From positions 806,001 to 870,000 of the forward strand of contig CP048485.1 of the NCBI GenBank assembly GCA_025560025.1: a stretch of 64,000 nucleotides of DNA, given 5' to 3'. A model generated the notes under the pieces. That model was given only the letters and a program-made list of their open reading frames with translations, was not told the origin of the DNA and searched no databases. The position numbers and the translations under genes are program-made. The DNA is from Agrobacterium tumefaciens (lineage in GTDB: Bacteria; Pseudomonadota; Alphaproteobacteria; Rhizobiales; Rhizobiaceae). Below, in pieces: positions 11,369 to 56,329 of the stretch (its first letter is position 1; each line of letters begins with the position of its first letter).

Positions 11369-12397
11369 TTAAGCAGCAGGGGCCTGATACTGGCTGAGCG
11401 TACACACGCCGAGCGTCTGGCCGCGGCCCTTGACCGCGTGTTCGCCGAGATATTCGCTGCGCACGCCCTTGGGAAGCACCAGCTGATGCGCAAGATCGGC
11501 GGAAATCAGCACGGGGTGTCCCAGCATCTTGCTCAGCGATTCGAGTCGCGAGGTCGTGTTCACCGTATCGCCGAAATAGGTGATCTTGTGATGGTCAACG
11601 CCGATTTCGGCGGTGATGACCGGTCCGCCATGGATGGCGAAGCGCAGGCGCGGCACTTCGCCGAAGCGGGCAAGCCACATGTCGCGATTGCTTTCTATGG
11701 TCGCCTGGACGTCGAAAACGCAGCGCACGCAGGCCGCTCGCCTTATCGCCATGTGATAGGGCCAGGTGATGATGGCGGCGTCGCCGATATAGTCGTCGAT
11801 GACGCCGCCGTGTTTTCTGACTGGCGCGGCATAGCTTGCGAAGATTTCACCGAGAAACTCCTGCGCCTTCAGGTCGCCATGGGTTTCGGCGAAGGAGGTG
11901 GAGCCGACGAGATCGATGAAGATGAAGACCCGGTCTTCGCTCACCGGGCGTCTGTAGCGCCCGAGAATGAGGTCGATGAAGATATCGCGGCCCAGAAGCT
12001 CGCGCACCCGCATGATGAAAACGATGATGCCGCAGACGATGAGGGTAAAGACGAGGGTCTGCACCTCGGCGTGCACCGCCCGCTTCCAGGTGCCGGGAAA
12101 TATCCCGCTCAGCCACAGGATCGTGCCGCCGAGCCCGAAACCGCAAAAGACGAGAATGGCATAGATGATGAGGCCAACGGCGATATAGGCCGGTGTCGGC
12201 AAAGCACTGACCTGCCGCGACAGGCCGGGCATGATGTAACCGCGCTCGAAAGCAAGGATGGGCGTGCAGGCGAACAGCGCATAGGTAGCACCGATCAGCG
12301 CGCCGCCGCCATATTCCAGAAGCGCATAGGCCACGCCGCTGCCGGCCACGGCAACGAAGAGCACCACGTAATCCAGAATGGGCAGCAATTTTCTCAT
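11369..12397 (-). CDS. Membrane-bound adenylate/guanylate cyclase domain protein
   Basis: A 342-residue protein with about four membrane segments in residues 8-130 and a class III cyclase domain from about 155. The first metal Asp is in FIFIDLVGSTSF (D162) and the second in YIGDAA (D206); the late motif FGDTVNTTSRLE keeps the Asp, Asn and Arg expected for catalysis. The residue normally a purine-reading Lys before the IGD motif is Asp (D202), so nucleotide preference or activity may be unusual. It is monocistronic. Confidence 0.85.
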   Translation of the reverse strand: MRKLLPILDYVVLFVAVAGSGVAYALLEYGGGALIGATYALFACTPILAFERGYIMPGLSRQVSALPTPAYIAVGLIIYAILVFCGFGLGGTILWLSGIFPGTWKRAVHAEVQTLVFTLIVCGIIVFIMRVRELLGRDIFIDLILGRYRRPVSEDRVFIFIDLVGSTSFAETHGDLKAQEFLGEIFASYAAPVRKHGGVIDDYIGDAAIITWPYHMAIRRAACVRCVFDVQATIESNRDMWLARFGEVPRLRFAIHGGPVITAEIGVDHHKITYFGDTVNTTSRLESLSKMLGHPVLISADLAHQLVLPKGVRSEYLGEHAVKGRGQTLGVCTLSQYQAPAA

Positions 12398-47561: not shown

Positions 47562-47647
47562 GCGGACGTGGCGAAATCGGTAGACGCAGCAGACTTAAAA
47601 TCTGCCGACCATTGGTCTTGCGGGTTCAAGTCCCGCCGTCCGCACCA
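47562..47647 (+). tRNA. tRNA-Leu (anticodon TAA)
   Basis: A complete 86-base cloverleaf with encoded CCA. The acceptor arms are GCGGACG and CGTCCGC, the anticodon stem GCAGA/TCTGC surrounds CTTAAAA with the TAA anticodon at 47596-47598, and a long variable arm fits a class II tRNA. Base composition and gene type change immediately after it, so it is probably the insertion site of the region to the right. Confidence 0.95.
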
Positions 47648-47759
47648 ACTGTTTATGAAATATATATATATATCAACTATTTGGCGTATTTCGATGGTTT
47701 CAAGTCCACCTTTCCGTCCACCTTTTGCGCGTCGGTAAGCGAACGTTCACAATCCCGTG

Positions 47760-51792: not shown

Positions 51793-52014
51793 TTAGTCGC
51801 CGGAGGGCGTCTCAGCGCTGGAGTAGACTAGCATGGGCTTTGATCTAGGCGACTCGTCGTAAATCTGTTTTGCTTCTGATCGAACCATATCCAGCAGGTA
51901 GGTGAGGAACATTACTCTGTCGCTCGGCTGGCAAAAATTGACGAGAGAGATCAACTCGTCCGTTTGTTCAGCAATATATCGCGCAATAGCTTGTTCGGTT
52001 AACTGCTCATGCAT
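51793..52014 (-). CDS. Hypothetical protein (73 aa)
   Basis: A short soluble protein beginning MHEQLTEQAIARYIAEQTDE and ending SSAETPSGD. Its start overlaps the end of the luxI gene by eight bases on the same strand, so it is probably cotranscribed and could have a role in the quorum-sensing unit. No family is recognised. Confidence 0.5.
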   Translation of the reverse strand: MHEQLTEQAIARYIAEQTDELISLVNFCQPSDRVMFLTYLLDMVRSEAKQIYDESPRSKPMLVYSSAETPSGD

Positions 52015-52693
52015 AGGACACCTGCGCAATCGGCTCTCTATGCGCCCGATCAACAAAAGCAATCAGGGTTTTCCCGGTTATAGGATTCAAGGCACCAGCG
52101 GCCAGTTCTAAAACGCTGCCATTGATGCCTGCGCCACGGTGATGAGACGCCAGAGCGGCGGAAGAGGGGGAGGCGTGGATTGGGACAACAAGGGACCCGT
52201 CATACACCATCGGCGCAGCAAGCGGCGTTACCTCCCAGAGATTGGACACGAGTAGGTTCACCAGCTTCGGATGCGTCTCGACTATGAGAGCTTCAATGCC
52301 GGCACTCAGGCAGAATTCGGCAACCCCGGTTAGTAGCATGTGAGAGGCTTCGACACCGCGGAGCGTCGCACCCGGTTCAGCAACGCATCGCGTCCATTCA
52401 TAAACACTCTTCTCGCGTGGATAGTCGCGGCCACCCATGATTTCTGGATAGACGTCGGAGAGCAGATGCGCTGCGTTTGTGGCAAGAAGTCGAGAGTAGC
52501 CTAAGATGACACCTTCATCATCTAGGACGAGGTGAATGGCCTCGTCAGTATCGAAGATATCCATTTCCCGGCCGTCCGGCTTACGAAGCGCTTCCCACCC
52601 GAAACGCTCTACAAAATGCCGGTGCCTGAATTGCCAAACTCGCTCGGCAAAACCGGAAGCTTGGAGCGATGAACCCTTGAAATATCGAAGCAT
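52007..52693 (-). CDS. Acyl-homoserine-lactone synthase (LuxI family)
   Basis: A 228-residue autoinducer synthase that makes an acyl-homoserine lactone from SAM and acyl-ACP. The invariant residues are present: Arg, Phe and Trp in FRHRHFVERFGWE, Glu-Asp in MDIFDTDEA, Arg in LGYSRLL and Glu-Arg in YEWTRCVAEPG. The signal type cannot be read from sequence. It lies 74 bases after luxR on the same strand, with a lux-box candidate in the gap. Confidence 0.9.
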   Translation of the reverse strand: MLRYFKGSSLQASGFAERVWQFRHRHFVERFGWEALRKPDGREMDIFDTDEAIHLVLDDEGVILGYSRLLATNAAHLLSDVYPEIMGGRDYPREKSVYEWTRCVAEPGATLRGVEASHMLLTGVAEFCLSAGIEALIVETHPKLVNLLVSNLWEVTPLAAPMVYDGSLVVPIHASPSSAALASHHRGAGINGSVLELAAGALNPITGKTLIAFVDRAHREPIAQVSYA

Positions 52694-52723
52694 TAAAACC
52701 CCCACAGATTTGCAGGGGTAGGG

Positions 52724-52766
52724 ATAATGCAGCGCGCTTTTGGGTAAATAGGCCGTTCTGCCTATT
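52724..52766 (-). promoter_or_regulatory. lux box and promoter of the luxI gene
   Basis: A 20-base inverted repeat at 52747-52766 has perfect seven-base arms (AATAGGC/GCCTATT), one base after the luxR stop. Reading towards luxI, a CATTAT -10-like hexamer lies at 52729-52724. The centre of the repeat would be about 40 bases before the expected transcription start, the classic place for a LuxR-type activator. A second dyad (ACCCC...GGGGT, 52698-52719) covers the luxI ribosome binding site. Confidence 0.6.
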
Positions 52767-52767
52767 G

Positions 52768-53514
52768 TCAGCGAATGATACCTATGCGGATGGCTTCGGC
52801 TATGAGCTGCGCTCGATTGACGCAATTCATCTTCCGTTGGGCATTGTGAAGCTCATGCTGGACGGTTTTCTCAGAGCGCCCGAGAATTTGCCCAATCTCC
52901 CAATTGGTCTTGCCTTCCGCACACCAGCGAATTACGTCGCGTTCGTGCTGGGTGATATAGGGCGCGTCTTTCCTACCAGCGCCGCTTTGTTGCTCAAGAA
53001 GCGCCCTGAGGCGATTGTGGGCATAAATGGCAACGATGTGCAGAATACCTTTCGCCTCGGTCGAGAGGTCAATTTTCTCGGCACCGAATGTGACGATGGC
53101 CTGAAGCGCACCCGGCATGTGTAGTGGCACGCTATAGCCATCGATCATCCGAAATTCGGACGCCTCGTTCATTAGTTTTCTGGCTTCACGACGGATAGGC
53201 TTGCCGGCCAACTCCTCTGACCAGACAAAAGCACCGTCTGAAATTTTGCTTTGATAAATAACGGGATCGATGTGGACATAGTTTTCGGCCACATAGCGCT
53301 CAAACCAACCTTCCGGCCAGGCACTCAGTAGAACGTATCGATCGATCTTTTCCCCAGGTAGCGGGATTCCGGAAATAGCAAAACAATCGAGGCCAAAGCC
53401 CTTGGAGACCTTCGACAGGTCATGGATGATTGCATCCGTTGTATTCGCAGTGGTCATCGCGGTGATAAAATCAAACATGACGTTAGCGGCATGCTGTCTG
53501 CTCTGTGGATCCAT
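52768..53514 (-). CDS. LuxR family quorum-sensing regulator
   Basis: A 248-residue regulator with an N-terminal autoinducer-binding domain (YVLLSAWPEGWFERYVAEN, YVHIDPVIYQSK, GAFVWSEE hold the usual Trp, Tyr, Asp and Trp ligand residues) and a C-terminal GerE helix-turn-helix (GKTNWEIGQILGRSEKTVQHELHNAQRK). It probably binds the signal made by the adjacent LuxI and activates luxI through the box between them. Confidence 0.9.
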   Translation of the reverse strand: MDPQSRQHAANVMFDFITAMTTANTTDAIIHDLSKVSKGFGLDCFAISGIPLPGEKIDRYVLLSAWPEGWFERYVAENYVHIDPVIYQSKISDGAFVWSEELAGKPIRREARKLMNEASEFRMIDGYSVPLHMPGALQAIVTFGAEKIDLSTEAKGILHIVAIYAHNRLRALLEQQSGAGRKDAPYITQHERDVIRWCAEGKTNWEIGQILGRSEKTVQHELHNAQRKMNCVNRAQLIAEAIRIGIIR

Positions 53515-54187
53515 AATGCACTCGCTGCAAAACAGTCTTACGGAATGAACAATGATGTACGACAAAGCAATTATAAAAATATTGCTTCAAAGAACCCGAT
53601 CCGAATTCTGTAAAGGTACAAACGCTCAAGCTGCGCTGGAGATAGTGCGATTGATGGCCGAAAATAACGAGTTGGCGGGCAATTCAGTTACGACGATGTC
53701 TCCGAAGCAATGAATGTTTAAACCTATTAGCAAACGGGCACTCCTTTTTACGGCTTCCGAAAATTCGGGGTTATCGCTTACCATCCCTTACCTGGGTTTG
53801 CGTCACGGTGGCGCACCCCCCCGTCATTCGGAGTTTTCGCCAAATCCGGCGCCAATCACTTTCCATCGCTGCGATGCAAAGCCGGTTTGATTTCCTTTGA
53901 TTAAATTCAAAGCCTGGGCGTTACCGGTTTAAGGTTTTACTGTATCGCCCACCCCAAAAGCCACCGACAGCGCAGACCTCATGAAGACTGTCAAACAAAC
54001 CAGAACATACCAAGCGATTAGCAAAAGTATGATCGACGCAGGCCGTGACGCTGCGCTATAGTTCTTTGTCAAGAGCACCTTGTGGATTTTCACTGGAAGG
54101 TACACTATGTACGGGAACATAGGGCGTAGTGGCATGAGTCGCTGCGCTTATCGTGTCGGTAGCTTCGATCCCGACAAGCGAGGTCAG
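53515..54187. other. Intergenic stretch before the ImmA-cyclase module
   Basis: About 670 AT-rich bases with no frame I can support. It holds the left copy of a 25-bp direct repeat (53743-53767), a run of seven C near 53815, and presumably promoters for luxR and the peptidase gene. Confidence 0.5.
53743..53767 (+). repeat. 25-bp direct repeat, left copy
   Basis: Identical over 25 bases to 56065-56089 in the same orientation (starts CCTTTTTACGGC, ends AAAATTCG). The flanks differ. The two copies bracket the ImmA-cyclase module, 2322 bp apart. Confidence 0.85.
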
Positions 54188-54721
54188 ATGGCGTCAATTT
54201 ATAAAGACCCGATACCAACGAGAGCATCGAAAGCCAGCGTCGCAGCTTTTGCGGAAAGCGTAGCTGCAGAATTGTCCTTCAATGCGGGTGAGCCAATCGA
54301 AGATGTTGTGTCGTCTCTTGGTGGCGCTATTTCTTATAGAAACCCTGTAGGTGAAGCTATACCTGAATCAATTCGTGTAGAGCCGTCCTGTAAATTCAAA
54401 ATATTTTTATCGAGCTTGACATCTGTAAGTCGCGACCGTTTCACTTTGGCTCATGAACTTGGCCATTTTTTCCTTCATTTCCCCCTCGTTAGCCAAGCCT
54501 TTCCGGGATTTGGTATGAGAGCAACAAGATGGGTAGATGAGAGCAATCCCGACCTACAGCGCTGTGAGTGGGAGGCAAACTGGTTTGCTGCCTCATTCGT
54601 CATGCCAGAAGCTCCCTTCCGTGAAGTTTTCCCCCAAGGCATCGCCTCGGCATCTTCGTTTTTTGGCGTTAGCGAAAAAGCTGTAGTCGTGCGTGCAAAA
54701 AGTCTGGACTTACCTGTCTGA
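54188..54721 (+). CDS. ImmA/IrrE family metallopeptidase
   Basis: A 177-residue zinc peptidase. The HExxH motif lies at residues 89-93 (LAHELGHFFLHF) and the third ligand is likely Glu129 in the WEANWFAASFVMP segment, the arrangement of ImmA/IrrE proteins that cleave repressors or regulators. Unlike phage ImmA it has no attached helix-turn-helix. The start at 54188 follows GAGGT; the frame opens at 54080. Two bases separate it from the cyclase-like gene, so the pair is a unit. Confidence 0.85.
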   Translation: MASIYKDPIPTRASKASVAAFAESVAAELSFNAGEPIEDVVSSLGGAISYRNPVGEAIPESIRVEPSCKFKIFLSSLTSVSRDRFTLAHELGHFFLHFPLVSQAFPGFGMRATRWVDESNPDLQRCEWEANWFAASFVMPEAPFREVFPQGIASASSFFGVSEKAVVVRAKSLDLPV

Positions 54722-54723
54722 TT

Positions 54724-55902
54724 ATGGCGACCTGTCCTGACTACCGCGTTCGCCTTTTCTTATCCGTCGACTTGGTTGGCTCAACCGCCTTCAAGGGAAA
54801 TTCCGAACCTGACGCGGATGTGCTCTACCCAGAGTGGGTGGAGAGCTTTAGGCAATTCTATAATGCGTTCCCGGCCCGCGTTGACGCAATATACAACGAA
54901 TCAAAGCTGGCCGCGGCTGACGGTGAGAAGTTCCTCAACGGGGGTCCGAAGGTATGGAAAACAATAGGGGACGAAATTCTCTTTTGCGCGAGAGTAAATA
55001 GTATAAGGCATCTCGCTTGTTGTATCACTTCATTTCTGGGAGCGCTCGATGCCTACGGCAAGTTGCTGGAAAACTCCGGCGTACCACTCGATGTGAAAGG
55101 ATCGGGCTGGTTAGCAACTTTCCCTGCGCATAACATATCGATATCTGTGCAGAGCAACACCGAAAGCGCCGGATCTAGCGTGAGCCACGACGCAACAGAA
55201 GAGTTCGAACAGCAGGTTGATGCTTCTCCATTGCTTTTCGATTTTTTGGGCAAGGATATTGACGCTGGCTTTAGGATTGCAAAGAACGCGTCTACCGATA
55301 GATTTACATCCTCCCTTGAACTCAGTTTTCTTCTGGCGCAGGCCAGCCTACAAGATATGTTCTCAGGCAGGTTCACATACCACGGCAAGGAAACATTTAA
55401 AGGTGTTATTCGAAATCAGCCTTATCCCGTGATATCAATTGATACCGAGCGCGATTTTGCGAAGCGCAACCTAAGATACAGGGAACGTCTTCTCACGAAA
55501 GAAGTCGACGCGCCCCCCCAAGCTTTGCAGGACTTTCTCTCAGCATTTATGAACTACGAAGGTATCGAAATCCCGGTGCTACCTGTCGAGACCGGGTCCC
55601 ATCCCCCACCCAAACCGGCCTCTTATGAAAGGTTCAAAAGCGCTTGGAGTTTAAGTTTCAAGGAGACAGAGGAGCGGGATGAAAGCATCGAGGCATCTGA
55701 AGCTGTCGCAAATCAATCTGGGTTGGCCCGTTTAGATGATGTGATAACGGATTTCGCCAAGCAAGTCAGAAGCGAAAGTTTCAAGTCATCACTCAATCAC
55801 GTACGGGATAATTTCCAGCAATATTCGGAAGCTATAGCGGAATTTAACAAACACTTTGGAGCTTCCGGGAGCGCAAAAAAAAACGAAAACGACCAGAAAT
55901 AG
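54724..55902 (+). CDS. Class III nucleotide cyclase-like protein
   Basis: A 392-residue soluble protein. Its first half resembles a class III cyclase: metal Asp in LFLSVDLVGSTAF (D16), substrate-type Lys79 and second Asp in KTIGDEILF (D83), and GKDIDAGFRIAKNA (176-189) where the catalytic Arg (R184) is kept but the usual Asn is Asp (D180). The C-terminal 150 residues have no recognised domain and no membrane helix. It recalls cyclases of Pycsar antiphage systems, by inference only. It is coupled to the peptidase gene. Confidence 0.7.
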   Translation: MATCPDYRVRLFLSVDLVGSTAFKGNSEPDADVLYPEWVESFRQFYNAFPARVDAIYNESKLAAADGEKFLNGGPKVWKTIGDEILFCARVNSIRHLACCITSFLGALDAYGKLLENSGVPLDVKGSGWLATFPAHNISISVQSNTESAGSSVSHDATEEFEQQVDASPLLFDFLGKDIDAGFRIAKNASTDRFTSSLELSFLLAQASLQDMFSGRFTYHGKETFKGVIRNQPYPVISIDTERDFAKRNLRYRERLLTKEVDAPPQALQDFLSAFMNYEGIEIPVLPVETGSHPPPKPASYERFKSAWSLSFKETEERDESIEASEAVANQSGLARLDDVITDFAKQVRSESFKSSLNHVRDNFQQYSEAIAEFNKHFGASGSAKKNENDQK

Positions 55903-56329
55903 CGACCAGATTCTCCGATTAGCGTAGAACTTGCTGGCCTATTTCTCTCTGCGCTAGTTCATCCGTAGACGCAGGCAACTCATAACCTAAATCGATCGAT
56001 CTTATCAACCCCATCACAGACTTTGATGCGCTCTGTTTTCGCTCTGTATTATCAGGCGGAGCTGCCTTTTTACGGCTTCCGAAAATTCGATCTCTTTTAG
56101 GGAGTGACAAAATTCCTTCATCTGCCGTGCGGCCAGCGTGGAAGCAGCCCGTTCCCCTATTTCGGCCTATTTTACGCTCTAATCAGTATTTCCCACCGTT
56201 TTTAGTCGCTCATGGGGTGAGTGAAAAAAAGCGGGAACGTGGGTTTCAGGCTTGTTTCCCTCCCCGTTGTTGCCCGCAAATTCAGGGCGTCCATGCTCCT
56301 GCCAGAGCATCCCGAAAGATTCGGGACAC
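55903..56329. other. Intergenic stretch after the module
   Basis: About 430 bases. It contains the right copy of the 25-bp direct repeat and a lone copy of the A-run/GCGGG motif. A minus-strand frame of 63 codons (55919-56110, TTG start) crosses the repeat but has no supporting evidence. Confidence 0.5.
56065..56089 (+). repeat. 25-bp direct repeat, right copy
   Basis: Exact match to 53743-53767 in direct orientation, lying 160 bases after the cyclase-like gene. Confidence 0.85.

Follow-up and report, generated by a model that had tools for sequence, protein, structure and literature searches.

A cyclase-fold protein encoded beside a sensor-less M78 peptidase on a prophage-like element of Agrobacterium tumefaciens: a candidate damage-linked switch

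In a 64,000-nucleotide stretch of the Agrobacterium tumefaciens genome (assembly GCA_025560025.1, contig CP048485.1, positions 806,001 to 870,000 of the forward strand; hereafter the window, whose own numbering is used below), a gene for an M78 (ImmA/IrrE-type) peptidase is followed immediately by one for a protein with a class III nucleotide-cyclase fold, which raises the question of whether the two act together and, if so, which of them acts on the other. The answer that we favour, and hold as plausible but short of probable, is that they form one functional unit, a DNA-damage-linked mobile switch in which the cyclase gates a peptidase without a sensor domain so that growth or infection stops. 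Pairing, fold, conserved catalytic residues, the missing sensor domain, LexA boxes in relatives and the mobile setting were all computed. The two genes are as follows.

54191..54721, + strand: M78 (ImmA/IrrE-type) zinc peptidase, 176 amino acids (aa), single domain, with a start chosen by us
54724..55902, + strand: class III nucleotide-cyclase-fold protein, 392 aa; catalytic domain at residues ~3-243, helical tail at 245-392

A first-pass annotation of this DNA had described an HExxH ImmA/IrrE peptidase gene 2 bp from a second gene, and both open reading frames (ORFs) were confirmed: the cyclase ORF begins 2 bp past the peptidase stop codon, and the peptidase contains HExxH and matches Pfam PF06114 (E = 5.7e-17). 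The longest peptidase reading spans 54080-54721 (+) from a TTG, but the ATG at 54191 is the most likely start because it fits the length of relatives.

Sought across genomes, as the annotation had proposed, the two genes proved adjacent in most relatives. In a motif-found set of 106 loci (the best 80 of 223 genome relatives plus 26 viral loci), an M78 gene lies directly upstream of the cyclase on the same strand in 98; the remaining eight are two at a contig edge (L046, L100) and L069, L082, L085, L087, L089 and L118. A profile-found set comprised 24 other places from 349 genomes evenly drawn from the phylum (E below about 1e-20), with the peptidase directly upstream in 18, or in 15 of 21 once three places common to the first set are removed; of the six others, L161, L171 and L172 are stand-alone and L170, L175 and L177 are broken. 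Counting the window's own, the cyclase is present in 25 of those 349 genomes and in 15 of 385 from the class. The class sample gave 13 other places (E up to 1e-30), ten of them with the peptidase; four had already been seen, all paired, so that six of the nine new places are paired, and the peptidase is absent from the weaker places (G835, G960). Across 43 pairs, peptidase and cyclase distances are correlated (r = 0.82, reached in none of 2000 permutations), as they should be for genes with a shared inheritance. The pair also occurs on Leptospira phage LE1 and Leptospira plasmids, on the Clostridioides phages phiC2 and phiCD27, and on Mycolicibacterium and Tistrella plasmids; a Sphingomonas plasmid carries the cyclase without the peptidase. 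One viral contig holds two different copies of the module (L096 and L115), and an acidobacterial cyclase (L085, 4095-6855) is preceded, in the peptidase's place, by two unannotated same-strand genes with no Pfam match. Two of the short stand-alone cyclases of sphingomonads, L087 and L009, have a porin-like gene beside them.

Carriage is accessory, since only two of 39 genomes of the genus have the module, in copies 39% identical (the second is L004, in G022), and it is missing from the species' other genome (G062). The patchy distribution (25 of 349 genomes) and the two divergent copies in one genus, together with the close spacing of the genes and their presence on plasmids and phages, would also suit a toxin–antitoxin-like addiction pair, made up of a toxic protein and a partner that holds it in check. 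We consider this quite improbable, given that both proteins keep their catalytic sites and that stand-alone cyclases exist.

The second gene had been called class III cyclase-like, a guess from the letters that no family model supports but that structure prediction bears out. No match was returned for the window protein by Pfam (E up to 0.1), PADLOC (up to 1) or NCBIfam (up to 0.05), nor was there a significant profile match in the PDB (Rv1900c at E = 0.24; two glycosylases at 0.56-0.69). The predicted structure, however, is a cyclase homology domain fold with a metal site, so the metal-binding fold that the annotation had proposed to look for is present in the model. The metal aspartates D16 and D83 and the transition-state arginine R184 of class III enzymes are present, and every one of the 21 unbroken copies in the profile-found set retains all three (three of the 24 copies being broken). 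GDE and DxGFR motifs are invariant among 59 aligned cyclases, whose tail beyond residue 245 is, as judged by eye, poorly conserved. The base-pocket residues vary between clades of the family; in the window protein S14, K79, I81 and D173, aligned by offset from the metal Asp, differ from F100/R142/Q144 of EaPycC and F60/K104/F109 of AnPycC (residues as given in the sections of PMC11224242 available to us), and from its sequence the pocket looks adenine-type. The same genome encodes four ordinary class III cyclases (PF00211), one of them at 11414-11926 (-) in the window.

The peptidase belongs to the M78 family: Pfam match, fold comparison and alignment agree on a zincin fold with HExxH and a downstream glutamate. 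HExxH is kept in 97 of the 98 peptidases of paired loci, and H88, E89, H92 and E126 are invariant among 43 aligned (a set that excludes L067, discussed below). In all 98 peptidases no more than 20 aa follow the M78 fold, so that a C-terminal sensor domain is absent, and the peptidase model covers residues 6-184 of the 278-residue CapP chain.

The pair can also be read in the reverse direction, with the peptidase cutting the cyclase's variable C-terminal tail and so switching cyclase activity. Cutting the protein encoded next door is the usual M78 logic (ImmR, DdrO, CapH; excerpts of PMC2701414 and PMC10904395), the poor conservation past residue 245 would suit a cleaved tail, and one cyclase beside a peptidase, L018 (6001-7368), identified by reading tails, ends in a Cro/C1-type helix-turn-helix domain, a known M78 substrate class (Pfam HTH_3 4e-13; PADLOC capH 1.2e-6). 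That domain is found in just one of 59 cyclases, however, and near-tailless cyclases exist, although the two short examples given below have no peptidase. We regard this reversed direction as a serious rival, albeit unlikely.

A link to DNA damage, a point that the first-pass annotation did not foresee, comes from LexA boxes upstream of the pair. GTTCN7GTTC, the Caulobacter SOS box (Table 1 of PMC9578287, the portion of that paper used), occurs on either strand within 250 bp before the peptidase fold in 18 of 49 alphaproteobacterial loci, compared with zero to three boxes at every other spacing from 2 to 12; loci were assigned to groups by record title. Over the 94 loci with enough upstream DNA, 19 boxes were seen versus 0.96 expected from flanking DNA. 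No such peak appears in front of the genes that neighbour the pair in these alphaproteobacterial loci, where 6 of 186 promoters have the motif at spacing 7 and 0-5 at the remaining spacings, and the box-bearing promoters are mostly not mutual copies (2 similar pairs of 153). Ten further alphaproteobacterial loci outside the 106 (L004, L155, L157, L166, L212, L213, L214, L216, L218, L223) add three boxes, in L004, L155 and L213, and among profile-found loci with a peptidase the box occurs in one of 18 (L155). Other consensus types (CTGT/ACAG, GAAC/GTTC, TTTG/CAAA; spacings 2-12) gave no spacing-specific signal in any group. The window itself offers at most a decayed box.

54115..54129, + strand: at most a decayed LexA-like box, with 2 mismatches to GAACN7GAAC, counted by eye

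SOS-type control and carriage by prophages would also fit a phage immunity or lysogeny module, in which an ImmA-type peptidase cleaves the phage repressor and the cyclase tunes the peptidase. The LE1 peptidase is annotated as 'immunity region protein in prophage', and ~0.5 kb past the LE1 cyclase there is a gene for a CI-like repressor. In the window, however, no XRE repressor adjoins the module: upstream, on the opposite strand, are a LuxR-type regulator (52768-53565) and a LuxI-type synthase (52007-52825), and downstream, also on the opposite strand, an ORF without a Pfam match and a PadR-like regulator. Copies occur on plasmids and bacterial chromosomes as well, and we judge this explanation fairly improbable. 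The LuxI/LuxR-type quorum-sensing pair (52007-53565) shares a prophage-like element with the module, and G012 has DNA 79-80% identical to it.

The first-pass annotation had further noted identical 25-bp direct repeats 2322 bp apart around the pair, which the coordinates confirm, and had suggested that the pair moves or is lost as the unit that they bound. Mobility stands, but the repeats are not its bounds. The relevant features are:

53743..53767, + strand: left 25-bp direct repeat, an island-associated motif and not a module boundary
56065..56089, + strand: right 25-bp direct repeat, within a conserved 361-bp block
55932..56292, + strand: 361-bp block, 88% identical to a block in the module-less element of G019
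47562..47647, + strand: tRNA-Leu(TAA), at which the element is likely to have integrated
47632..47647, + strand: likely attL core, 16 bp, with a second copy outside the window (G000:C1:881740-881755) beside the integrase
47706..47725, + strand: paired CCACCTTT repeats, possible integrase arm sites

The repeats agree at all 25 bases, an exact match far beyond chance, and in the 5.68-Mb genome only these two copies occur at up to 3 mismatches (a reversed control pattern gave none). G019 is a genome with a single repeat and no module, as the annotation had proposed to seek: a related element of ~6 kb in tRNA-Thr, with an integrase 86% identical, contains the 361-bp block with one exact repeat that keeps both flanks of the window's right copy. 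The repeats were therefore rejected as module ends, and we attribute the motif to islands of this kind, not to the module. Single copies lie 1.9 kb downstream of a tRNA gene in G027 (3 mismatches) and 0.35 kb downstream of one in G167 (1 mismatch in a 21-bp core); the CCACCTTT pair also follows the tRNAs in G019 and G027, and is not in G167. In the DNA taken from G027 and G167 the integrase of the element was not seen, so that a related element is demonstrated for G019 alone. Among 297 genomes of the family, the 21-bp core at up to 1 mismatch occurs only in the window's genome and G167. In four viral contigs (L135-L138) the core lies inside a gene that, read by eye, we take to be terminase-small-subunit-like.

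The ends of the element are instead likely to be two 16-bp tRNA-Leu repeats separated by ~28 kb. The final 16 bases of tRNA-Leu(TAA) recur beside a tyrosine integrase (Arm-DNA-bind_3, Phage_integrase), and between the copies two proteins are encoded of which one matches a major head protein (7e-28) and the other, weakly, an excisionase (1e-4); these copies, the integrase and the phage-type matches mark the module as cargo of a ~28-kb prophage-like element. GC content is about 0.60 up to the tRNA, 0.48 right after it, 0.48 to 0.60 deeper in the element and 0.48-0.50 over the module.

Does the module keep company with defence genes, a point that the annotation had proposed to test? Neighbour ORFs (n = 113) matched 67 PADLOC families at 1e-10, versus 18 for control ORFs (n = 117). 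This is weak evidence; the tables count families, not proteins, and the control was rough, 30 regions having been obtained of 40 requested, always near the start of contig 1 and not at random. The neighbours were 112 of 148 nearest-neighbour ORFs plus one added by hand, 36 having been dropped for length or as likely spurious. Among the 25 of 67 module-set families displayed are type IIG restriction enzymes, MADS, DISARM-type, Druantia, type I/III methylases and PycTM; the control families displayed are mostly UvrD-like helicase models. In phiC2 the pair lies near an endolysin and an abiF-like gene.

The PycTM matches bear on another possibility, a form of Pycsar in which the response to the cyclase would come from a PycTM-like effector with a separate gene. 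Two of the 113 nearest neighbours are PycTM-like (L029, 4757-5245 (-), and L074, 7100-7642 (-)), and by coordinates they account for two of ten PycTM matches in all across 49 module-bearing genomes; the chance expectation of about 0.02 overstates them, as they were spotted after the fact. Both, however, lie on the strand opposite to the module, no PycTM or PycTIR effector was found among the scanned neighbours of the window module, and PycC models matched none of the 59 cyclase members at E 0.01. With a pocket that looks adenine-type besides, the Pycsar comparison drawn by the annotation is weak, and we think such a variant very improbable.

We therefore return to the switch proposed at the outset. 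Two catalytically conserved enzymes encoded by overlapping or touching genes, one sensor-less and one a likely signal maker, point to it. The pair would act as one functional unit on prophages, plasmids and islands. The cyclase would be an active class III enzyme, probably using ATP, and the peptidase an active M78 protease without the signal-receiving C-terminal sensor domain of IrrE/PprI, for which the co-translated cyclase may stand in. Damage or phage infection would derepress the pair (through LexA in many alphaproteobacteria); the cyclase would activate the peptidase, either through the cyclic nucleotide that it makes or by touching it directly, which is the direction of signalling that we favour, and the activated peptidase would cleave a host or phage target and so halt growth or infection. 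Here we infer the product, direction, target and defence or stress outcome. Positions among phage cargo, the patchy spread, control by damage in relatives and a number of defence-type neighbours suggest a role in defence, though they do not prove it.

Several observations pull the other way. The Asn that is catalytic or stabilizes the transition state in class III cyclases is replaced by Asp180 in all 59 aligned members (a register taken from hhalign against the host's own class III cyclases at a probability of only 0.8%, used for register only and in agreement with motif spacing). The peptidase has no recognisable cyclic-nucleotide-binding domain, and that of L067 (5330-5947) lacks HExxH, yet the adjoining cyclase is intact. 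A minority of cyclases stand alone, and so can act without the peptidase, among them short ones in sphingomonads (L087, 277 aa; L089, 262 aa; record L009). Common descent alone also yields correlated distances, and the comparison of defence neighbours is weak. GTTCN7GTTC marks a minority even of alphaproteobacteria and one of 46 loci in other groups, and the window promoter (250 bp) has no LexA box at up to 1 mismatch.

How, then, does the pair relate to what is known? No paper treating it as a system was found in searches of openly (Creative Commons-) licensed literature. The phiC2 record annotates both ORFs as similar to LE1 ORF 1 and 2; the parts of PMC2701414 available to us list the M78 genes of both LE1 and phiC2, although as members of XRE pairs, and a passage of the review PMC4009436 mentions the phiC2/phiCD27 gene cassette, with a weakly tcdB-like phiC2 gene beside a DUF955 gene. 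By place and elimination, that gene appears to be the cyclase-family gene (L013, 4824-6410, p41), so that its old annotation may be corrected. All 11 members of set A1 match both phrog_18024 and phrog_6174, entries listed as of unknown function with no fold or pairing given; phiCD27 orf37 (L007, 4824-6410) matches the same PHROGs. By reading, the phiCD27 cyclase relative in that set has a NUDIX-like tail, with weak matches only (NCBIfam 0.026, PHROG 0.0074) and none in Pfam. A phage protein family catalogued as of unknown function can thereby be assigned a fold and a partner, to which a regulatory input is added in alphaproteobacteria.

Among characterized systems, CapP/CapH (associated with CBASS, cyclic-oligonucleotide-based antiphage signalling systems), IrrE/PprI-DdrO and ImmA-ImmR combine an M78 peptidase with an XRE repressor, whereas the partner here is a cyclase-fold protein and the window neighbours, all encoded on the opposite strand, include LuxR/LuxI-type and PadR-like genes; IrrE and CapP, moreover, carry the C-terminal sensor domain absent from all 98 peptidases of the pair. 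CBASS itself relies on a CD-NTase (cGAS/DncV-like nucleotidyltransferase), whereas the enzyme here has the cyclase homology fold. Pycsar (PycC with PycTM or PycTIR) shares the class III fold, two metal aspartates and a compact two-gene layout, but differs in its partner, in the PycC models and in base-pocket residues. From class III adenylyl cyclases (CyaB, Rv1900c, Ma1120, mammalian C2) the family departs in lacking a Pfam cyclase match, in the Asn-to-Asp180 change, in its invariant GDE and DxGFR, and in its own helical tail. It is possible, and we put it no higher, that the pair represents an undescribed immune or stress class in which a trans-encoded class III cyclase has replaced the sensor of an IrrE/CapP-type peptidase, a cyclic-nucleotide-gated protease that is LexA-controlled in many alphaproteobacteria and phage- or plasmid-borne across at least Proteobacteria, Spirochaetes, Firmicutes and Actinobacteria. 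The pair joins two themes usually kept apart, damage-activated M78 proteases and cyclase-based signalling, and if the cyclase does gate the peptidase, the result would be a protease switched on by a nucleotide, a mechanism testable with two proteins.
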